Source: Methylocapsa palsarum (lineage in GTDB: Bacteria > Pseudomonadota > Alphaproteobacteria > Rhizobiales > Beijerinckiaceae). Taken from it: 64,000 nt of DNA. Below the pieces are notes generated by a model. The model did no database searches and was not told where the DNA came from. It worked only from the letters and a program-made list of their open reading frames with translations. Each line of letters opens with the position of its first letter. Position 1 is the first letter of the stretch. Below, one piece after another: positions 7,999-54,152 of the stretch. The stretch spans positions 124,001 through 188,000 of the forward strand of contig NZ_FOSN01000004.1 of the NCBI RefSeq assembly GCF_900114285.1, given 5' to 3'. The translations under genes were made by a program, and so were the position numbers.

Positions 7999-9531
7999 AT
8001 GAAACACATTCTGGAACAGCTCGCCGCCCGCCGCGCCGCAGCCATCGCCGGCGGCGGAGAACAGCGGACAGCCGCGCAACATGCGCGCGGCAAGCTCACG
8101 GCGCGCGAGCGCATGGAGTTGCTCCTCGATCATGGTTCGTTCGAGGAATTCGACATGTTCGTCCAGCATCGGGCGACGGATTTCGGCATGGACAAGCATC
8201 ATGCGCCGGGCGATGGCGTCGTCACCGGCTGGGGCACCGTCAACGGCCGGACCGTCTTCGCCTTCGCCAAGGATTTCACGGTCTTCGGCGGCTCGCTCTC
8301 CGAAACCCATGCGCAAAAGATCAACAAGGTCCAGGATATGGCGCTGCGCAACCGCGCGCCGATCATTGGCCTTTTTGACTCAGGCGGCGCGCGGATCCAG
8401 GAAGGCGTAGCGGCGCTCGGCGGCTTTGCCGAAGTGTTCCAGCGCAACGCCCTGGCCTCCGGCGTCATTCCGCAGATTTCGGTCATCATGGGACCTTGCG
8501 CGGGCGGCGACGTCTACTCGCCGGCGATGACCGATTTCATTTTCATGGTGCAGGGCACAAGCTACATGTTCGTCACCGGGCCCGAGGTGGTGAAGACCGT
8601 CACCAACGAGACCGTCACCGCGGAAGAACTCGGCGGCGCGCCGGTGCACACGACGCGGAGCGGCGTCGCCGACGGCGCCTACAACAATGATGTCGAGGCG
8701 CTCCTGCAGATCCGGCGGCTGATCGACTTCCTGCCCTCGTCCAACACCGCCGCAATTCCGGAATGGCCGAGTTTCGACGACGGCGGACGCTGCGAACCTT
8801 CGCTCGACACGCTCGTTCCCGAAAACCCGAGCCGGCCCTATGACGTCAAGGAACTCATCGTCAAGATTGTGGACGAAGGCGATTTCTTCGAAATTCAGGA
8901 CGCTTTTGCGCGCAATGTCGTAACCGGATTCGGCCGGATCGAGGGCCGCACCGTGGGCCTCGTCGCCAACCAGCCGCTGGTCCTCGCCGGGGTGCTCGAC
9001 TCCGACGCGTCGCGCAAAGCGGCGCGGTTCGTGCGGTTCTGCGACTGTTTCAGCATACCGATCGTCACCTTCGTCGACGTTCCGGGGTTCCTGCCTGGAA
9101 CCGCGCAGGAAAGCAACGGACTGATCAAGCACGGCGCCAAATTGCTCTTCGCCTACGCCGAGACGACAGCGCCGAAGGTCACGATCATCACCCGCAAGGC
9201 CTATGGCGGCGCCTATGACGTAATGGCCTCGAAACATCTGCGCGGCGACGTCAATTTCGCCTGGCCGAGCGCGCAGATCGCGGTCATGGGCGCGCGCGGC
9301 GCCGTCGAAATCATTTTCCGCCAGGACATGAACGATCCGGCCAAGATCGCGGCGCGCACGCGCGAATACGAAGAGCGGTTCTTATCGCCGTTCGCCGCGG
9401 CGGAACGCGGCTATGTCGACGAAATCATCATGCCGCGCGAAACCCGCAAGCGCATTGCCAGCGCACTGGCGATGTTGCGCAACAAGGATCTGCAAAATCC
9501 GTGGCGGAAGCACGATAACATTCCGTTGTGA
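7999..9531 (+). CDS. pccB: Propionyl-CoA carboxylase, beta (carboxyltransferase) subunit
   Basis: The beta subunit of propionyl-CoA carboxylase transfers CO2 from carboxybiotin to propionyl-CoA, making methylmalonyl-CoA. The 510-residue protein starts [20 protein letters not shown] and has both crotonase-like halves. The N-terminal half contains [13 protein letters not shown] and the CoA-site region [18 protein letters not shown]. The C-terminal half contains [13 protein letters not shown] and [15 protein letters not shown]. The frame is open further upstream, but the ATG at 7999 is the family start. With pccA it would feed propionyl-CoA, for example from the ethylmalonyl-CoA pathway, towards succinyl-CoA. 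A receptor gene and a repeat separate it from pccA. Confidence 0.95.
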
Positions 9532-9537
9532 TTGTCT

Positions 9538-11745
9538 TCAGAACCGCTGGGACAGGCCGGCGAGGAAGGTTCGCCGGAGGCCATATTGCGACGCTCCGAC
9601 GCCGACGCCTGTCCCGTCGCGAATTTCATAAATTGCGTCGCCAAGATTCAACACGTCAAAGCGTAATTCGGCCGCCTGCTCGAGACCCAGATCGAGCTTC
9701 TGCACGACGCTGGCGTTGAATGTCGCATAGGCGGGCAAAGAAGCTCCATTCGGAACGTTGTCCGTACTGGCCCGCAAGCCGCTCTGCGCGACAGCGTCAA
9801 TCGAAACCTTCGTCCGATATTTCGTTCCCATGTTGAACGTGTAGGCGGCCCCACCTGATCCGGTCCAGGTCTGATCGTGATCGAGATGAATATAATGTTG
9901 CGCGATATAGGCGAGTTCGTCCGGCGCGAAATTGAATTGCGCCGAAACAATATTCGTCCCCAGCGCGCGGGAATAGGCCGCGTTGGCGTAAACGGAGAGG
10001 GGACCATCGTCATATGCGATCGAAAAGGTCGCGCCGCCGACATTGGCGTTGGCGTAATTGAAGGCGGTCAAAATGATCGGAGCTCCGAACTGGCCCTCGT
10101 CAAGCAGGTTGACCGCCTGCTTGTAATATCCGTCGAGATTGACTGTCAGATGCGGCATGACGACCTGGCTGAAGCCAACGTCAAAGTAATTCGACCGCTC
10201 CGCTTTCACGATCGAATCCTGCGTCACGGAGGGCGCCGCCGTCGTGTTGACGAACAGCGCGACTGACGTCGGCGAGACGAGTTCGAACGGAGGGGGGACG
10301 AAATAGCGCGAGTAGCCGGCGTGGAACACCGTTCCCTCGAGCGGTTTCCATACAATGTTGACGCGTGGGCTGATCTGGCCCTCGTTCGTGTATTGATTAA
10401 CGGCGTCGGCCCGCAAACCATAGTTGAGCGTCAACGTCGGCGCGATGCGCCATTCATCTTGCAGGTAGAGGCCGCCAAGCCAGCCGAATTTGCTTCCATT
10501 GTCGACAATTCCGAAAGGTACGGCTGACGTCTGCGCGCCGGCGTCGTCCACCGGCAAGACAAACGAGGTCGTGTTATAGGCTGTGCGTTCCAATTGACCG
10601 AGCAAGCCAAAGCGCAGGGTGTGGCTGTCGTTGATGCGCCAGCTGGCGTCGATCTGCGCGCCCTCGGCAAGATTCGACCGCCGTGCGTAAGGCGTCACGC
10701 CATTGAACAGCAAATCACCGAGGGAGTCGGGCGCAAATCCCAAAGCGCTGTTGCGGACAAACGCCGAGGCTTGCAGGTTGATGTCGCCCCAATTGTTGAG
10801 GTCGATGCGCTTTTGTAGCGAGAGGATGCCAAATTGCGTCGACTCGGACTGGTTTTCATTGAGGGCGGAGCTGTTGAACGTCGACAAGCCGTTGACGTTC
10901 AGACCAAGTTGCGGAACCTGCCCCGGGTTGTTCGGAATTTGAAAACGGCCGTCGAAGGCGCCGCCGATCATGCTGACCCGCGTGTCCGGATCGAGGACGC
11001 CGGAGAGATAAGCAAAACCGTGGAGTTGCCGCGTCGCGTCGTGGAGCGCATTGAAAGTGCTGGCCGGATTCTCGATCCCGCGATTATTCTGAAGGTAATC
11101 CCCGGAGACATACCAATCCACCGCTCCATTGCGCCCGCCGTATTCGACGCTCGGTTGAAGCCATCCGAAGCCGCCGCCGTAGATTGAATAAGCGAGTCCT
11201 GGATTGGTGATCCCGGTCTTGGTTTGAATGTCCAGAACGCCGGCGGTCTGAAAGCCGTATTGCGCTGGAAGGGCGCCCGTGAGCAGCGACATACTGTTGG
11301 CGAAGCGGGTCTGCAACGCCTGGCCGAAAACCGAGAGTCCTTCCGGCAATTGGACGCCATTGATCCGGAACTGCACATTGGCGTGATCGCCGCGGATATG
11401 CACCTGCCCGAAACTATCCTGGGCGACGCCGGGCGCCTGAAGCAGAATCTGATTCAGCGGCGCGTTCTCTCCTTGAGGAATCGTCCGCAGCGCCTCTGGA
11501 CTGAAAGTGTAAACGCTGGCGCCAAGGCTTGGCTGGATCGAGAGCCGCGCTTCATCAAGCCGCGCGGCCGTGGCCACCACGGCGTCGAGCTCAAAGACGG
11601 TCGCGTCAGCGCCCGCAGACTGTCCGGCGGCAGGCGTCTGCCCCGCCGCGCCAGCGGGCGTGAGCGTCAGGACGACGGCGAAAGAGGCGGCCAAAGAGGC
11701 GTATTTGACAACATTATGAATTCTGTCTGGCACGACGACATCCAA
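9538..11745 (-). CDS. TonB-dependent outer-membrane receptor, probably zinc-related
   Basis: This 735-residue outer-membrane transporter has a signal peptide (SLAASFAVVLTLTPAGAAG). A plug domain contains GENAPLNQILLQAPGVAQDS, the segment VHIRGDHANVQFRINGVQLP and the region SLLTGALPAQYGFQTAGVLD. A beta-barrel follows, ending in the aromatic C-terminus LSQRF. The substrate is not evident from the protein. A near-consensus Zur operator (11771-11785) just upstream suggests uptake of zinc or a zinc chelate under zinc limitation; that is inference. The annotated TTG start at 11745 has no clear ribosome binding site, and a GTG at 11733 is an alternative. The gene is inserted antisense between pccB and pccA. 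Confidence 0.88.
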   Translation of the reverse strand: MDVVVPDRIHNVVKYASLAASFAVVLTLTPAGAAGQTPAAGQSAGADATVFELDAVVATAARLDEARLSIQPSLGASVYTFSPEALRTIPQGENAPLNQILLQAPGVAQDSFGQVHIRGDHANVQFRINGVQLPEGLSVFGQALQTRFANSMSLLTGALPAQYGFQTAGVLDIQTKTGITNPGLAYSIYGGGFGWLQPSVEYGGRNGAVDWYVSGDYLQNNRGIENPASTFNALHDATRQLHGFAYLSGVLDPDTRVSMIGGAFDGRFQIPNNPGQVPQLGLNVNGLSTFNSSALNENQSESTQFGILSLQKRIDLNNWGDINLQASAFVRNSALGFAPDSLGDLLFNGVTPYARRSNLAEGAQIDASWRINDSHTLRFGLLGQLERTAYNTTSFVLPVDDAGAQTSAVPFGIVDNGSKFGWLGGLYLQDEWRIAPTLTLNYGLRADAVNQYTNEGQISPRVNIVWKPLEGTVFHAGYSRYFVPPPFELVSPTSVALFVNTTAAPSVTQDSIVKAERSNYFDVGFSQVVMPHLTVNLDGYYKQAVNLLDEGQFGAPIILTAFNYANANVGGATFSIAYDDGPLSVYANAAYSRALGTNIVSAQFNFAPDELAYIAQHYIHLDHDQTWTGSGGAAYTFNMGTKYRTKVSIDAVAQSGLRASTDNVPNGASLPAYATFNASVVQKLDLGLEQAAELRFDVLNLGDAIYEIRDGTGVGVGASQYGLRRTFLAGLSQRF

Positions 11746-44095: not shown

Positions 44096-44865
44096 CCAGG
44101 CGGGCCGGCCCCTGGTCCCTCAATGCGCCGGACTGGCTGACGGCGCGCCCGATCGCCCATCGCGGACTTCACGCCAGGGCGACGGGACTCGTCGAGAATA
44201 CAATCGCGGCGGCTGAAGCCGCGATCGGCAAGGGGTACGCCATCGAATGCGACGTGCAGCGGACCCGGGATGGCGAAGCCGTCGTTTTTCACGATTTTAC
44301 CCTTGATCGCCTGATGCGCGCGAAGGGAGACGTCGCCGCCTTCAGCGCCGGCGACCTCGCCGGTCTCGCCCATAAGGAGTGCGACGAGGGGATCGCGACT
44401 TTATCCGGCTTCCTTGCGGCGGTCGCGGGCCGGACGCCCGTGATCGTTGAAATCAAAAGCCGGTTCGACGGCGATGTCCGCCTCGCGGCGCGCGCGCTGG
44501 CGGCGATCGCGGACTATGCGGGTCCCGTCGGCCTCAAGACCTTCGATCCTCGTGTCCTCGCCTGTCTCCGCGCCCAAGGCGCCTCGCGTCCGCTCGGCCT
44601 TGTCGCCGAAGCCTGCTACGAGACCGGCGAATGGCTTGAACTGGCGCCGCAGCAGCGCGCCGCGCTCCGCGAGCTGCGGCATTTCCCCGACACGCGTCCG
44701 GATTTCCTGTCCTGGAACGTCAATGATTTACCGCACGCCGTGCCGATGCTGTGCCGTGCCGGAATCGGAATGCCGGTCATGACCTGGACCGTGCGGTCGC
44801 CGGAGGACAGGTCGCGGGCCGAACTGTGGGCGGATCAGATCGTCTTCGAGGGCTTCGAGGCCTGA
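44092..44865 (+). CDS. Glycerophosphodiester phosphodiesterase family protein
   Basis: This is a TIM-barrel GDPD that would hydrolyse glycerophosphodiesters to glycerol 3-phosphate and an alcohol. The essential N-terminal motif ARPIAHRGLH with NTIAAAEAAIGKGYAIECDV, then VVFHDFTLDRLM and VIVEIKSRF, cover the catalytic His-Arg, Glu-Asp and His residues. The first canonical start codon in this frame (GTG 44254) lies after the catalytic His, so translation must begin earlier. The only candidate near the ridA stop is CTG at 44092 (CTGA overlap), giving 257 residues. An undetected frameshift is the alternative. It converges on the desaturase gene, overlapping it by 31 bases. Confidence 0.82.
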   Translation: MTRRAGPWSLNAPDWLTARPIAHRGLHARATGLVENTIAAAEAAIGKGYAIECDVQRTRDGEAVVFHDFTLDRLMRAKGDVAAFSAGDLAGLAHKECDEGIATLSGFLAAVAGRTPVIVEIKSRFDGDVRLAARALAAIADYAGPVGLKTFDPRVLACLRAQGASRPLGLVAEACYETGEWLELAPQQRAALRELRHFPDTRPDFLSWNVNDLPHAVPMLCRAGIGMPVMTWTVRSPEDRSRAELWADQIVFEGFEA

Positions 44866-45911
44866 CTCGATCGAGCGTCGGTCCGTTCGCCAATCCGGCG
44901 AAGCGCGGCTGAACTTCGATCGACCCGCGTATAGAGCGTGTAACCGGGATCGAAGATGAACTTGAACAAAAGTCCAACCCAGGACTCGTGAGTTTTCAGA
45001 TCGTCGTAGAATTCCGGCGCCATTTGCTTCAGTCGCGGCAGCCTGGTCCAGGGCACGTCGGGAAAATCGTGATGTTCGTTGTGATAGCCGATGTTGAGCG
45101 CGACGATGTTCATCGGGCCGTAATAATCGAAGGTCTCCTGCTCGGGATCGCTGGTGAAATGCTCCTGGACCCAGCGCGCGCCGAGCGGATGCAGGCCGCC
45201 GACTGAAAACCAGAACGACGCGAACAGGTAGAGCAGCGCATTGGGGCCGAATAAAAAGACAACCGCGAGATCGTAGAAAATCACGCAGACCGTGTTGATG
45301 AAGGTCCAGCGGCCCCACATCGGCACTGTTCCCCTGAGCCGTCCGAGACGGGTCACCTGAAACACCGCGAAAAAGAACATCCAGGCGGCCTTGCCGTACC
45401 AGGTCCGGCCAAAAACCCTCGCCTCCCAATGACTTGGCAGATCGGCGTCGTAGTCGTAATCGCCAAGATGGGAATGATGCTTCATGTGGTAGCAGCGAAA
45501 GCCCATCGCGGTCGGGAAGCCGTTTGGCAGATCCGCGAGAATCGCCGTCCATTTGTTCCAGGTTGGGCTTTTGAAGACGCAATTGTGCGAAGCGTCGTGG
45601 ATGATCACGAACAAGGCGTGGTTGGCGAAAGCTCCAACGCAAAAGGCGACGGCGATGGCGAGCGGCCAATAGGAAAGGCCAAGCCAGCCTAGCCAGGCGG
45701 CGATCAACGTCTGACCCGCCGTCAGCCCCAGCGTGATCACGGCGGTCAACGGATCGTAGCCGGCGAGCGCGGCGACGTCCGGATGCGCCTTCAGGATCGC
45801 GCGCCGGCGAATGGGATGCGGCCGAGGCTCGGCCTTGGCGATGAAGTCGGTCCGCGTCGCGGGCGCTTCGGCGGCCGCGTCGAGATTCAGGCCGAGCGAA
45901 TTGATGTTCAT
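44835..45911 (-). CDS. Sphingolipid (dihydroceramide) Delta4-desaturase-like protein
   Basis: This 358-residue membrane di-iron desaturase has the three histidine boxes HDASH (105-109), HMKHH (142-146) and HNEHH (277-281). Long stretches match eukaryotic DEGS1-type dihydroceramide desaturases: RCYHMKHHSHLGDYDYDADL, GGLHPLGARWVQEHF, ETFDYYGPMNI and NIGYHNEHHDFPDVP. It would introduce the 4,5-trans double bond of the sphingoid base, using O2 and an electron carrier. It is the last gene of a minus-strand operon behind a ceramide-synthase-like gene (39-base gap) and a serine-palmitoyltransferase-like gene. The C-terminal 30 residues are unlike the family. Confidence 0.85.
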   Translation of the reverse strand: MNINSLGLNLDAAAEAPATRTDFIAKAEPRPHPIRRRAILKAHPDVAALAGYDPLTAVITLGLTAGQTLIAAWLGWLGLSYWPLAIAVAFCVGAFANHALFVIIHDASHNCVFKSPTWNKWTAILADLPNGFPTAMGFRCYHMKHHSHLGDYDYDADLPSHWEARVFGRTWYGKAAWMFFFAVFQVTRLGRLRGTVPMWGRWTFINTVCVIFYDLAVVFLFGPNALLYLFASFWFSVGGLHPLGARWVQEHFTSDPEQETFDYYGPMNIVALNIGYHNEHHDFPDVPWTRLPRLKQMAPEFYDDLKTHESWVGLLFKFIFDPGYTLYTRVDRSSAALRRIGERTDARSSQASKPSKTI

Positions 45912-45950
45912 AGGGCGTCCCCTTTGGGCGCTATCGCTCCGCCATGACGA

Positions 45951-47114
45951 TCATGGCGCAAGCGCCGCAATTCCGAGCCGCTTCTCGTAAACGCGATGAA
46001 TCTTGTCGATTTTCGCGCCCGCGGCCTCGATCGGCCGCCGCATGCCGGCGTTGTTCTCCAGAACCCAGCCGAACTCGACATGTTCGATGGAACTCTGCCG
46101 GCTGCGGCGCCGGATTTCCTCGATGAACGCAAGTATAACGGCCCCGCCCGCCGCCTTGCGGTGGAGGGCGCGACGGATGCCGAAAAGTGCCAGCCGCCCC
46201 GATTTGAACTTGTGGTTCCTGATCCGCGAGATCATTCGAAAGATGCCGAAGGGGAGCAGCTTGCCGCCAAGATCGCCGGTGATCTCGTGCAGATTAGGCA
46301 GGACGACGCCAAAAGCCTGAGGCTCGCCGTCAAGTTCGATCATGAACCCGCCTTCAGGCGGCATCACCAGTTTCAGTCCGTCCGCGGTCGACATGAATTC
46401 GTCGTAGGTGAAAGGGGTGAAGCCCCAATTCTCGCTCCACGCGTCGTTGAAAATGTCGAGAATGATCCTGGCCTCGTTGGCGAGATCCTTGAGATCCAGG
46501 GTTCTGATGCGCAATCTGTCGCGCCATTCCGGCCGGTCGATAATCCTGGGACCGTCAGCGCGGTCCCTTTCGCTGACGTCGTAGCGGTATGAAATCAGAT
46601 CGCGGGCCTTGGCGTAGCCGCAGCGCTCGAGAGCCCCCGGCAGATAGTCGGGATTCCACGGCATGAACACCATCGGCTCGGCGTCGAAGCCCTGGACCAG
46701 CACGCCGACCTCGCTGTTGACCGACGGCGAGAACGGCCCATGCACGACTTCCGCGCCTCGTGCCTGCAGCCAGTCTTCCGCGGCCTTCATCAGCGCCCCG
46801 ACGACAAAATCGTCGTTGATCGCGTCAAGGCAACCGAATTGCGCGCGCGAGGCGCCCAGCGGCGCATGATCTTCGTCGTACATCTGCGCGAAAATTCGTC
46901 CGACGAACTTGCCGTCCCTGCGGGCGAGAAAGGCCTGCGACTCGACCAGTTTATAATGAGGGTTGAGCCGCGGCGAAAAGGAGGTCCACCGCTCGGCGTC
47001 GAGCGGCGGGGCAAATCCAGGCTGATCCTTGTATAAAAGGCGCGGCAGCCGGCAAAAGGCGAGGAAGTTTCCAAGCCCCTGAGAGGGAATGACGTCGACC
47101 GCGCTCTTCAGCAT
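45951..47114 (-). CDS. GNAT-like acyltransferase, candidate bacterial ceramide synthase (bCerS)
   Basis: This 387-residue protein has two GNAT-like halves. The first contains KFVGRIFAQMYDEDHAPLGA, ALMKAAEDWLQARGAEVVHG and PFSPSVNSEVGVLVQGFD. The second contains ARIILDIFNDAWSENWGFTP and, near the end, HVEFGWVLENNAGMRRPIEA. The layout fits the long GNAT-like family to which the bacterial ceramide synthase of Caulobacter belongs, which N-acylates the sphingoid intermediate independently of the eukaryotic enzyme. The assignment rests on the fold, the length and the gene position between spt-like and desaturase genes. It could be another acyltransferase. Confidence 0.65.
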   Translation of the reverse strand: MLKSAVDVIPSQGLGNFLAFCRLPRLLYKDQPGFAPPLDAERWTSFSPRLNPHYKLVESQAFLARRDGKFVGRIFAQMYDEDHAPLGASRAQFGCLDAINDDFVVGALMKAAEDWLQARGAEVVHGPFSPSVNSEVGVLVQGFDAEPMVFMPWNPDYLPGALERCGYAKARDLISYRYDVSERDRADGPRIIDRPEWRDRLRIRTLDLKDLANEARIILDIFNDAWSENWGFTPFTYDEFMSTADGLKLVMPPEGGFMIELDGEPQAFGVVLPNLHEITGDLGGKLLPFGIFRMISRIRNHKFKSGRLALFGIRRALHRKAAGGAVILAFIEEIRRRSRQSSIEHVEFGWVLENNAGMRRPIEAAGAKIDKIHRVYEKRLGIAALAP

Positions 47115-47177
47115 GAATGGTTTCTCATCGCCCCGCCCGGATGCAAAGCCGCCGGTCCGGCTCCGGGCAAGGCCTGA

Positions 47178-48404
47178 TCAAGTCGCGACGCTGAGAGCGC
47201 GGGCGGGCGCTGCATGTTCGCTTTTCCGTTTCGCCAGAAGGTCGATCACGCCCCTGATTTCCGCCTCCGTATGCGTGGCGGACAAGAAAAAGCGCAGGCG
47301 CGGCTGATCCTTGGGAACCCCGATCTGGATGATCGGCGGCACGTAATAATACTGGCTCAAAAGCAATCTCGAGGCGGCGAGCGTTTCGAGACTGTCCGAG
47401 AACAGGATCGGCACGACGCCTCGTCCGATCGCAGGGCCCGTGTCGAGACCGGCCTCGTGCGCGAGATCCATGAACAGTTCGGCGTTCTCGCGCAAACGGC
47501 GCAGTCGCCACGTCTCTTGCTGCATGAGCTGCAAGGCCGTTTCCGCAGCGGCGGAAATGACCGGAGACAACCCGACGCTGTAGACAAAACCAGGAAGCGT
47601 GTAGCGCAGCCAGTCGATCACAGGCGCCTTGCCGGCGACGAAGCCGCCGCAGGACGCCAGCGTCTTGGACAGCGTTCCGATGATGAGATCGACCTGCTGC
47701 GGATCGACGCCTGCGTATTCGCAAAGACCGCGTCCCTCGCTCCCAAGAACCCCGATCGAATGCGCTTCGTCGATCAACAGCCACGCGTTGCGCTGCTCCT
47801 TGATCCTGACGAGGCGGACGAGGTCGGCGACGTCGCCGTCCATGCTGTAAATGCCTTCCGCGACGATCAGAACGTTGCGGAAGTTTTCGCGCCGTTCGCG
47901 CAGCAGAAAATCGAGGTGGTCAAGGTCGTTGTGGCGGAAAACGACGGTTTCCGCCACCGCGCTTTTTGCGCCGCTCAGAATGCTGTTGTGCGACAATTCG
48001 TCGATGAAGAGCGCGTCCCGCGATCCAAGAATATGCGAGATCGTCGTGACGTTGGTCAGATAGCCGCTGACGAGGGTCAGCGCTGAATCTGTTCCGACGA
48101 ATTTCGCAAGGGCGACCTCAAGATTGCGATGGGTCGACCGCTCTCCGCCGACGAGACGGGAGGCCAGCGCCCCGACGCCAAAGGTATCGAGCGCGGCGGC
48201 CGCGCTCGACTTGATGGCCGGATGGGTGGACAGCCCGAGGTAATCATAGTTTGCGAAGCTGACAAACCGCTGGCCCTTCGCTTCCGCCTCGCGCCGCAAA
48301 GTATCGGTCGGAGCAAAGAATGGATCGCCGCTTTCCAGATAGGCTTTCCCGGCAAGGCGGAAGCGCTTGGTGGCGTATTGCGCGAGGCTGTTATCTTTTT
48401 GCAC
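47178..48404 (-). CDS. Serine palmitoyltransferase-like alpha-oxoamine synthase
   Basis: This 408-residue PLP enzyme of the alpha-oxoamine synthase family condenses an amino acid with an acyl thioester. The PLP Lys is K247 in GTLSKTLASCGG, with D212 and H215 in IDEAHSIGVLG and H139 in DELSHNSIL. The segment GGFVAG followed by LPGFVYSVGLSP, and PPIIQIGVPKDQPRLRFFLS, resemble soluble bacterial serine palmitoyltransferases more than AONS or KBL. With serine and palmitoyl thioester it would make 3-ketosphinganine, the first sphingolipid step. It is the first gene of the operon, with the acyltransferase gene following 63 bases later. Confidence 0.78.
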   Translation of the reverse strand: MQKDNSLAQYATKRFRLAGKAYLESGDPFFAPTDTLRREAEAKGQRFVSFANYDYLGLSTHPAIKSSAAAALDTFGVGALASRLVGGERSTHRNLEVALAKFVGTDSALTLVSGYLTNVTTISHILGSRDALFIDELSHNSILSGAKSAVAETVVFRHNDLDHLDFLLRERRENFRNVLIVAEGIYSMDGDVADLVRLVRIKEQRNAWLLIDEAHSIGVLGSEGRGLCEYAGVDPQQVDLIIGTLSKTLASCGGFVAGKAPVIDWLRYTLPGFVYSVGLSPVISAAAETALQLMQQETWRLRRLRENAELFMDLAHEAGLDTGPAIGRGVVPILFSDSLETLAASRLLLSQYYYVPPIIQIGVPKDQPRLRFFLSATHTEAEIRGVIDLLAKRKSEHAAPARALSVAT

Positions 48405-48965
48405 TTAGGTCTAGCCGTCTCAAAGGAGTTCTAGGATGTCTTTAAGAAACCTTGCGGCGTTAAGAAACCTTGCGGCGTTGCGCCTGCAACGAATCAAAGA
48501 GCCTGCAATGAATCGAAGCGCCTTCAATGAATCGAACTGTTCCCCCACAGCAAATCAATGCATAGCATCGCCCGACGGGGGGAGCAAAAGTCGATCGGGG
48601 GATAACCCTCGCCGATCGTCTTAAACTGCTTGCTGAAATCGCGTAACCCCTTGCAGACCAAAGATTTAGCGGCTTTGGTCAATTCGAGTTACAAACCGTA
48701 ACAATGCTCAGTTTAACCGTCGGACGCGGTATTTAGTGCTGACGATAGCCCAACGAAGACCGAAGATGGGAATCGGTTGCTTTAAAGCGGCGATCTTGAC
48801 CGCCAAGTCAGGGCCGCGGATTTTTAAATCCGTTTGAGCTCCAACGACTGAAATGCACTTCTAAACATGAATTTTTTACAAAGATTAAGAAAGTCTTTAC
48901 TATATTGCCGGGCCGCCAGCCTACGGCGAGCCATCGTCGACTCAGTTTCCGTCGACGCTTGCCCT
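48405..48965. other. Non-coding region upstream of the sphingolipid operon
   Basis: This 561-bp gap lies upstream of the serine-palmitoyltransferase gene and downstream of purD. It holds an 18-bp tandem duplication (ttaagaaaccttgcggcg, 48442-48477) and a perfect inverted repeat GTTACaaaccGTAAC (48689-48703) that could be an operator. An AT-richer segment lies at about 48620-48910. A short plus-strand frame across the tandem repeat looks like a by-product of the duplication. I see no RNA gene. Confidence 0.45.
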
Positions 48966-53026: not shown

Positions 53027-53353
53027 GGGGGTTTGATGCTCTCAGCTTGGGCTTGCGCCGATCTTATCGTGCGCCGGACGCCGATGCGCGTTCGAGATTG
53101 GGCGGAGGAAGTTTTTCCAGAGCTTTCTTACACAAAAAGGCCAATGCCAGTCTGATGCGGCGAGTGTAGTCGGCGATACGCCTAACCAAGTCTTGTTGAA
53201 TCTTTGCGGGTTCTTCCTGAAATCTGGACGGCGCGGAAGAGCTTTTGTCGCGACTTCTGCGCCAACATCGCGCTCTCTGACACGCCGACGCTCACACTGG
53301 CTTCCCTTCTTGACGGCGGCGCAACGTGATGCATATCAATGGTATCCACCATA
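53027..53353. other. Intergenic region upstream of the vapBC-linked repeat
   Basis: This stretch between mutL and repeat copy 9 has no convincing gene. Both strands have only short frames with unfamiliar translations. The mutL promoter should be at its left end. It may be the remnant of an older insertion, but no transposase motif or inverted terminal repeat is visible. Confidence 0.35.
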
Positions 53354-53466
53354 AGAGCGCTTTCCGATCGCATGAAGTCATGCGATCGATCAGAAATCGC
53401 TTCAGATTCAAAGAATTGAGCATATTCTTGTCGATTGGATTGATTCAATCCAATCGGAATTTGCTC
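53354..53466 (-). repeat. Interspersed bipartite palindromic element, copy 9 (reverse)
   Basis: This complete copy in reverse orientation runs from agagcgctttccgatcgc through the palindromes to ccaatcggaatttgctc. It ends two bases before the AGGAGG of the vapB ribosome binding site (53468-53473), so its hairpins would form directly in the vapBC leader. Confidence 0.92.
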
Positions 53467-53478
53467 CAGGAGGCGCAT

Positions 53479-53736
53479 TTGACCGCCAAAGGAACCGCCA
53501 AGCTCTTCATGTCCGGCCGCAGCCAGGCCGTGCGCCTGCCCAAGGAATTTCGGTTCGAGGGATCGCAGGTGCGGGTCTCCAAAATCGGCGACAAGGTTAT
53601 TCTGGAGCCGATGGAGAACGCACCCTTCGACGTCACGGCCTGGCGCGCGAGGCTGCGGGCCCTCGGCGCCGCCGATTTTCTTCCCGAGGGGCGCCCCGAG
53701 CAGCCGCCAACGCCTGATGACGGCGCCGCGTTCTAA
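53479..53736 (+). CDS. vapB: VapB-type antitoxin (AbrB/SpoVT fold)
   Basis: This 85-residue antitoxin has an N-terminal swapped-hairpin AbrB domain ([20 protein letters not shown], then FEGSQVRV) and a C-terminal tail ([20 protein letters not shown]) that would wrap the toxin. The start is the TTG at 53479, with AGGAGG five bases upstream; no ATG fits. The toxin gene begins five bases after its stop, forming a standard autoregulated operon. The repeat element abutting the ribosome binding site may influence antitoxin translation. Confidence 0.88.
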
Positions 53737-53741
53737 AGGCG

Positions 53742-54152
53742 ATGTTCTGTCTCGATACGAACGCCGTCATCGCCGCGCTGAATGAGAAAAGCCCGTTGAT
53801 GGCGGCGCGCCTCGACGCGGAAATCGCGCGCGGCGCGCAAATCCTTTTATCAGCGATCGTTCTTTACGAATTGCGGTATGGCGTCGCCAAAAGCGTGCGC
53901 CCGGAGCGCAGCCAGGCGATTCTCGCGGCGTTTCTGGATCTGCCGCTCACGATCGCCGCGTTTGACTCGGAGGACGCGAAAGGCGCGGGCGAAATCCGAG
54001 CGGCGCTGGCAAAGGCGGGAACGCCGATCGGACCCTATGACGTGCTGATCGCGGCGCAGGCCCGCCGCCGGAGCGCTACGCTCGTCACGGCGAACCGCCG
54101 CGAATTCGAGCGTGTGCCGGGGCTGGTCATCACCGATTGGATGGCAGGTTGA
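53742..54152 (+). CDS. vapC: VapC-type PIN-domain ribonuclease toxin
   Basis: This 136-residue PIN-domain toxin starts MFCLDTNAVIAALNE. The conserved acidic residues Asp5, Glu43 (LYELRYG) and Asp100 (GPYDVLIAAQA) can coordinate magnesium. VapC toxins cleave tRNA or rRNA and are neutralised by VapB. The C-terminal LVTANRREFERVPGLVITDW is typical of the family. All catalytic positions are intact, so the toxin is probably functional. Confidence 0.92.
   Translation: MFCLDTNAVIAALNEKSPLMAARLDAEIARGAQILLSAIVLYELRYGVAKSVRPERSQAILAAFLDLPLTIAAFDSEDAKGAGEIRAALAKAGTPIGPYDVLIAAQARRRSATLVTANRREFERVPGLVITDWMAG

Follow-up and report, generated by a model that had tools for sequence, protein, structure and literature searches.

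The closest described system in bacteria is the five-gene ceramide pathway of Caulobacter and Escherichia coli BL21 (Spt, AcpR, AasR, CerR, and bCerS). In E. coli BL21, Spt has been assayed and the five genes have been named as a dihydroceramide cluster (PMC9386255). The closest eukaryotic counterparts are the dihydroceramide desaturase DEGS1/DES, the ceramide 2-hydroxylase SCS7/FA2H, and ceramide glucosyltransferase (UGCG, family GT21). Here we describe a three-gene operon in a stretch of 64,000 nucleotides from Methylocapsa palsarum (contig NZ_FOSN01000004.1, positions 124,001 to 188,000; hereafter the window), which encodes an alpha-oxoamine synthase (AOS), a long GNAT-like acyltransferase, and a DES-type desaturase. 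The locus shares with the Caulobacter/E. coli BL21 pathway a pyridoxal phosphate (PLP)-dependent oxoamine synthase and a full-length bCerS homologue. On the other hand, its AOS falls in another clade, no orthologue of CerR was found, no acyl carrier protein (ACP) is encoded in the window, and DES, SCS7-like, and GT21 enzymes are added. With a probability of roughly 0.7, we propose a bacterial ceramide pathway tailored in the eukaryotic manner, of which the operon would form the core, the predicted product being a Δ4-unsaturated, 2-hydroxylated hexosylceramide.

The operon was confirmed as real. The three minus-strand genes reported in a first-pass annotation of the window, with gaps of 63 bases between the AOS and acyltransferase genes and 39 bases between the acyltransferase and desaturase genes, were reproduced at the same coordinates (Table 1), and all the motifs listed there for the desaturase (the three histidine boxes, FDYYGPMN, and GYHNEHHDFP) were located. 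The trio is more than a chance arrangement because its members match PF00487, PF08557, and PF00155 and because the order is kept in related loci, as described below. The gene upstream of the operon is purD. By its named relatives, the window belongs to the Beijerinckiaceae, close to Methylocapsa/Methylocella. The source genome comprises 4.1 Mb in 78 contigs with a computed completeness of 100%, and the profile searches of it covered selected families.

Table 1. Coordinates of the operon, its desaturase motifs, and the associated genes elsewhere in the genome (window positions unless a locus is given)
Feature	Position	Strand	Remarks
AOS, DES-linked clade; putative serine palmitoyltransferase-like first step	48404-47178	minus	408 aa, GTG start; PLP lysine in GTLSK
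Long GNAT-like N-acyltransferase, bCerS/YghO homologue	47114-45951	minus	387 aa, ATG start
DES-type membrane desaturase, putative dihydroceramide Delta4-desaturase	45911-44835	minus	358 aa, ATG start
Lipid_DES (PF08557) N-terminal domain, desaturase residues 19-55	45747..45857	minus	Pfam match
Histidine box 1 HDASH, desaturase residues 105-109	45585..45599	minus	
Histidine box 2 HMKHH, desaturase residues 142-146	45474..45488	minus	
Histidine box 3 HNEHH, desaturase residues 277-281	45069..45083	minus	
GT21 glycosyltransferase	L197 (C30) 8274-9422	plus	tail to tail with FA2H-like gene
FA2H-like hydroxylase	L197 (C30) 9469-10134	minus	221 aa
C46 cluster: ACP, FabF-like ketosynthase (KS), unassigned 148-aa protein, MaoC dehydratase, short-chain dehydrogenase/reductase (SDR), cellulose-synthase-like GT2	L200:8866-13763 (G000:C46, ~511365-516262)		

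The assignment of the desaturase to the DES family, as a putative sphingolipid Delta4-desaturase, is supported. The protein is the sole match to PF00487 in the genome (94.7 bits; cut-off 29.7) and also matches the DES-specific family PF08557 (40.2 bits; cut-off 23). Alignment with a human DEGS1 sequence entered without a database record gave 32% over 321 aa and 190 bits, whereas the other alphaproteobacterial desaturases reached at most 52 bits among those listed. Of the 93 columns conserved at 95% or more in 81 bacterial DES sequences, 64 are identical in this DEGS1, and the box histidines are invariant across 11 diverse rows. The best NCBIfam model scored far under its cut-off, and a search of solved structures by sequence returned no usable match. 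The family identity given in the first-pass annotation is borne out by the two Pfam matches and by the comparison with DEGS1. The enzyme differs from DEGS1/DES in being bacterial and in that its gene shares an operon with those of an oxoamine synthase and a homologue of bCerS, and its activity is predicted from sequence.

The acyltransferase is likewise supported as a homologue of bacterial ceramide synthase, with N-acylation as its predicted activity. The references for ACYLTRANSFERASE were the 20-kb regions around 16 of the 24 canonical alphaproteobacterial Spt-band loci, the canonical band being 432–835 bits with NF047603 (next match, 263) among the 190 class genomes searched. Clustering of the open reading frames (ORFs) in the 16 regions recovered Spt in 16, ACP in 15, CerR in 14, AasR in 13, and a long GNAT in 11 (three of them cut by the region end), where the labels CerR, AasR, and bCerS rest on gene order and homology to the E. 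coli BL21 cluster. The window acyltransferase aligns over its full length with the eight uncut GNATs at 35–39%, and with YghO of E. coli BL21(DE3) at 35.6% over 374 aa; these alignments uphold the earlier suggestion that it fits bCerS. An alignment of 18 rows contains 29 invariant residues, and the gene is present in a single copy in the genome. The match behind the GNAT label is marginal (PF00583, 21.8 bits; cut-off 20.7), E. coli YghO matched no Pfam family, and the search of solved structures by sequence gave chance matches alone. As a separate observation, LptF/LptG-type permeases lie near canonical Spt clusters (L148-L152; annotated in E. coli BL21, L209). For the 16 regions the call was made by eye from ORF families, which occur in 11 and 10 of them. 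The proximity suggests dedicated ceramide transport.

The gene order is conserved among relatives. Relatives of the desaturase were collected by a scan of named genomes, and the locus counts are based on the best 80 of at least 530 confirmed matches, which include Bacteroidota, Verrucomicrobiota, Ignavibacteriota, and other Alphaproteobacteria. The Beijerinckiaceae/Methylocystaceae-type set consists of 52 loci (L038-L088 and L105). An AOS gene occurs in 50 of them and a GNAT gene in 50, and AOS-GNAT-DES stand in this order on one strand in 49, in agreement with the operon proposed in the first-pass annotation. The exceptions are L049, without AOS and GNAT in the locus, L054, whose contig begins at DES, and L050, in which DES is inverted. 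Across 199 family genomes, any DES match (E 1e-3) was found in 74 and a DES match below 1e-30 in 53; any GNAT match was found in 63 and one below 1e-100 in 51, all of which are among the 53 DES carriers. A close GNAT is thus present in 51 of the 53 DES genomes versus none of the 146 other family genomes. The two remaining DES genomes (G152 and G168) have distant GNATs alone, as do 10 genomes without DES. The thresholds were chosen after the tables had been seen, the two draws were equated by matching handles, and the figures are a count of co-occurrence among related genomes, not a probability.

In some relatives, the operon is accompanied by GT21 and FA2H-like genes, which is a new observation that goes beyond the first-pass annotation. 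Within the 52-locus set, an FA2H-like hydroxylase gene lies near DES in 33 loci, a related SDR gene in 15, and a GT21 glycosyltransferase gene in four. Methylocapsa acidiphila (L038) carries AOS-GNAT-DES-GT21-FA2H in a single run, and L081, L086, and L088 carry AOS-GNAT-DES-FA2H with GT21 and SDR nearby; in part of the loci, FA2H-like or GT21 genes were not found in the fetched stretch near DES. In the genome of the window, the two genes form a neighboring pair on contig C30, away from the operon. The GT21 protein matches PF13506 (167.7 bits) and was the sole strong match in the genome search with this family (170 bits versus 33 and 27). Among solved structures it matched ceramide glucosyltransferase alone (E 1e-31), and it differs from a plain UGCG counterpart in being also related to the bacterial hopanoid enzyme HpnI. 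The C30 hydroxylase (PF04116, 57.1 bits) is one of five PF04116 proteins in the genome and, of these, the closest to the DES-linked hydroxylases. Its sole match among solved structures, listed to E 0.1, is SCS7 (E 3e-25 over 185 residues). The match begins at residue 185 of the 392-residue chain, and the hydroxylase is without the N-terminal part of SCS7, which we take to be a cytochrome b5 domain.

These two enzymes might act on hopanoids or other lipids, their proximity to the operon being incidental, and the operon might then produce another N-acyl amino-ketone or glycolipid. The GT21 protein does match HpnI (151.6 bits, below the cut-off of 310), the genome encodes HpnA, and part of the loci are without FA2H-like or GT21 genes in the fetched stretch. 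Moreover, a study of fatty-acid and hopanoid desaturation in another methanotroph postulated that other proteins of the fatty acid (FA)-hydroxylase superfamily desaturate hopanoids (PMC6460317). We nevertheless consider this explanation very improbable, given that GT21 and FA2H-like genes recur in clusters with AOS-GNAT-DES among relatives, and given SCS7 as the best solved match of the hydroxylase and the statement that DES enzymes have no known action on lipids other than sphingolipids (PMC5037126).

In the proposed ceramide pathway, the AOS would catalyse the condensation of an acyl thioester and an amino acid (most likely L-serine), and the bCerS-type acyltransferase would N-acylate the resulting 3-keto long-chain base. 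A reductase other than CerR, for which the SDR encoded at G000:C46 is a candidate, would then remove the ketone. The DES enzyme would act on dihydroceramide to create the 4,5 double bond or, alternatively, to add a hydroxyl at C4, the SCS7/FA2H-like enzyme would 2-hydroxylate the amide-linked acyl chain, and the GT21 enzyme would add a hexose. Desaturases and hydroxylases of the DES and FA2H families require oxygen, a need that fits aerobic methanotrophs. For Caulobacter, it has been argued that N-acylation precedes reduction (PMC11087976), and others have proposed the eukaryotic order.

Desaturation and hydroxylation by DES enzymes are not separable by sequence alone. The lipid could be a ceramide in which the DES-type enzyme hydroxylates, at C4 to give phytoceramide or at another position, with no desaturation. 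Eukaryotic DES2 is a Delta4-desaturase/C4-monooxygenase (PMC13161914), and for Caulobacter CC_0202, a DesA-family desaturase/hydroxylase, hydroxylation of the amide-linked acyl chain has been reported (PMC11324152). However, hydroxylation of the acyl chain could come from the separate SCS7/FA2H-like enzyme of the gene set, and a close DES homologue is present in none of the 24 canonical-Spt genomes, a comparison outside which Caulobacter CC_0202 lies. We regard an enzyme that solely hydroxylates as unlikely and retain the 4,5-unsaturated ceramide as the probable product.

Several results weigh against the ceramide reading as a whole, and the first group concerns the AOS. The protein belongs to PF00155 (148.7 bits), and its best NCBIfam model is bioF (338 bits; cut-off 426), while the Spt models gave 291, 283, and 209 bits, all below their cut-offs. 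The lowest of these scores was obtained with NF047603, whose cut-off of 670 is strict, being passed by two of the 190 class genomes and by none of the 14 controls, Caulobacter included. In a tree of 50 rows, the window AOS lies in a 19-row clade (support 100/100) drawn entirely from DES loci, four other alphaproteobacterial ones among them. This clade is separate from BioF, 5-aminolevulinate synthase (ALAS), and KBL and from the canonical Spt clade (100/100), and it stands on the Spt side of the tree with weak support at the deepest forks (79/65). Identification as a plain BioF was rejected, since a separate BioF-like gene (424 bits) and two ALAS genes are present in the genome and the tree sets them apart from the AOS; the full AOS-type set of the genome consists of these three, the window AOS, and two weak matches. 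The two ALAS, at G000:C43 and C30 (L034 and L035), both score well over the curated cut-off. Identification as a canonical Spt was also rejected, the NF047603 score lying below both the cut-off and the canonical band and the protein lying outside the 100/100 clade. The serine-palmitoyltransferase-like identity given in the first-pass annotation was not confirmed, with no Spt model reaching its cut-off and the protein forming part of its own clade; a grouping with AONS or KBL did not occur in the tree. The label Spt-like is a reasonable guess at function, short of demonstrated membership.

Prediction of the substrate from the AOS pocket was dropped. The catalytic residues H138, D210, H213, K244, and R367 (8guh numbering) are intact, and they are common to every AOS group compared and therefore uninformative on the amino acid used. 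An AOS that takes alanine or glycine would lead to a 1-deoxy (headless) ceramide-like lipid. The position outside the canonical Spt clade and the best curated model, that of the alanine-using BioF family, are in line with such a product, and one marine community is rich in 1-deoxyceramides (PMC11334938). Against it, the GT21 enzyme of the gene set would, from family knowledge, normally need a C1 hydroxyl, the genome already contains a BioF-like gene and two ALAS genes, and identity to E. coli Spt is 34% for the AOS as compared with 29–30% for these three. A 1-deoxy lipid appears quite improbable to us, and L-serine remains the preferred substrate.

The ketone reductase constitutes a second point against the ceramide reading. 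The first-pass annotation noted that a CerR-type reductase and an ACP were missing from the window, and none of the 14 CerR-profile matches or the 19 PP-binding matches in the genome does lie within C40:124001-188000. The genome-wide search for CerR that it proposed also ended without an orthologue among the 14 profile matches: the best hits, at 125 and 120 bits, were rejected as HpnA (463 bits, over the cut-off) and an unassigned epimerase-family protein. No AcpR is located next to the AOS gene, and none of the small ORFs read upstream of it (48405-48965) resembles an ACP. Elsewhere in the genome, the C46 cluster contains both an ACP, with 23 bits against the AcpR profile versus 69 for E. coli AcpR, and an SDR. 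Solved structures matched by the SDR are generic ketoreductases and allowed no specific assignment; it is a candidate ketone reductase that could equally serve the KS of the same cluster. The C46-type GT2 gene occurs near DES in 16 loci of relatives and is directly tail to tail with DES in 11. Many PP-binding domains are also found in large genes resembling nonribosomal peptide synthetases and polyketide synthases outside the window (G000:C33, C26, and C24; open frames up to 4140 codons).

The remaining points against the reading come from phylogeny, distribution, and the literature. In a DES tree with outgroup desaturases, the outgroups formed very long branches inside the DES set, so that the tree has no root and the direction of transfer is unreadable; its sole eukaryotic row was likewise entered without a database record. 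In L049 (Beijerinckia mobilis), DES is separated from both AOS and GNAT, and in G003 and G045 it is separated from GNAT; no AOS was found within the fetched stretch near DES in 21 of the 28 loci outside the Beijerinckiaceae-type group (19 of them Bacteroidota). The 24 canonical-Spt genomes yielded no DES orthologue (best E 9e-8). In favor of the reading, three Verrucomicrobiota loci (L096, L104, and L107), with an AOS gene no more than about 5 kb from DES, are a second lineage tying DES to ceramide-type genes. The best query for these AOSs was the solved Spt 8guh (36–38%), and an FA2H-like gene is a neighbor in two of the loci and a bCerS homologue in one. In the tree, however, the Verrucomicrobiota AOSs form a long branch of their own apart from 8guh. 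As for the literature, a 2020 survey of type strains states that alphaproteobacterial sphingolipids are apparently restricted to Sphingomonadales (PMC7179689), a statement already contradicted by the work on Caulobacter (PMC11087976). Sphingolipids in Methylocystis or Methylosinus are not reported in the available parts of PMC7179689 and PMC6460317. No characterised bacterial sphingolipid Delta4-desaturase was found in the literature covered, mostly main texts open without subscription, with Methylocystis and Methylosinus as the genera searched by name.

Two further features of the window were noted. A GDPD gene (44254-44865) converges on the desaturase gene from the opposite strand and overlaps its 3' end by 31 bases. 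The GDPD frame extends upstream (AHRGLH near 44160) without an ATG, GTG, or TTG start, indicating that the start is a rare codon or disturbed. At 53326-54152, a small ORF is followed by a PIN-like ORF, a look-alike of a VapBC-type toxin-antitoxin pair as judged by eye from the translation.

Taken as predicted, the system keeps the core logic known from bacterial ceramide synthesis and departs from it in its AOS, in the CerR that was not found, and in tailoring of eukaryote type. About half of the ceramides of Black Sea deep waters (median 46%) have a sphingoid base with one double-bond equivalent (PMC11334938), and the word desaturase is absent from the main text of that paper. Since these waters are without oxygen, a DES-type enzyme is no obvious explanation there. 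A wider proposal, which we advance tentatively and consider rather unlikely, is that true hexosylceramides with a 4,5 double bond and a 2-hydroxyl group are made by bacteria of the methanotroph lineages, in which homologues of DES, SCS7/FA2H, and UGCG would act on a bacterial ceramide core, and that the eukaryotic enzymes had a source to which this clustered set is related, the set not having been borrowed from eukaryotes. The gene set adds three tailoring enzymes of eukaryote type to the bacterial ceramide core. A 2014 study held that the eukaryotic ceramide glucosyltransferase is derived from mitochondria and that its role in ceramide metabolism was newly acquired by eukaryotes (PMC4198247); with GT21 genes clustered with ceramide genes in living Alphaproteobacteria, this view becomes directly testable. 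For cultured methanotrophs, either outcome of a lipid analysis would be instructive, because the type-strain survey saw no reports of alphaproteobacterial sphingolipids outside Sphingomonadales (PMC7179689).

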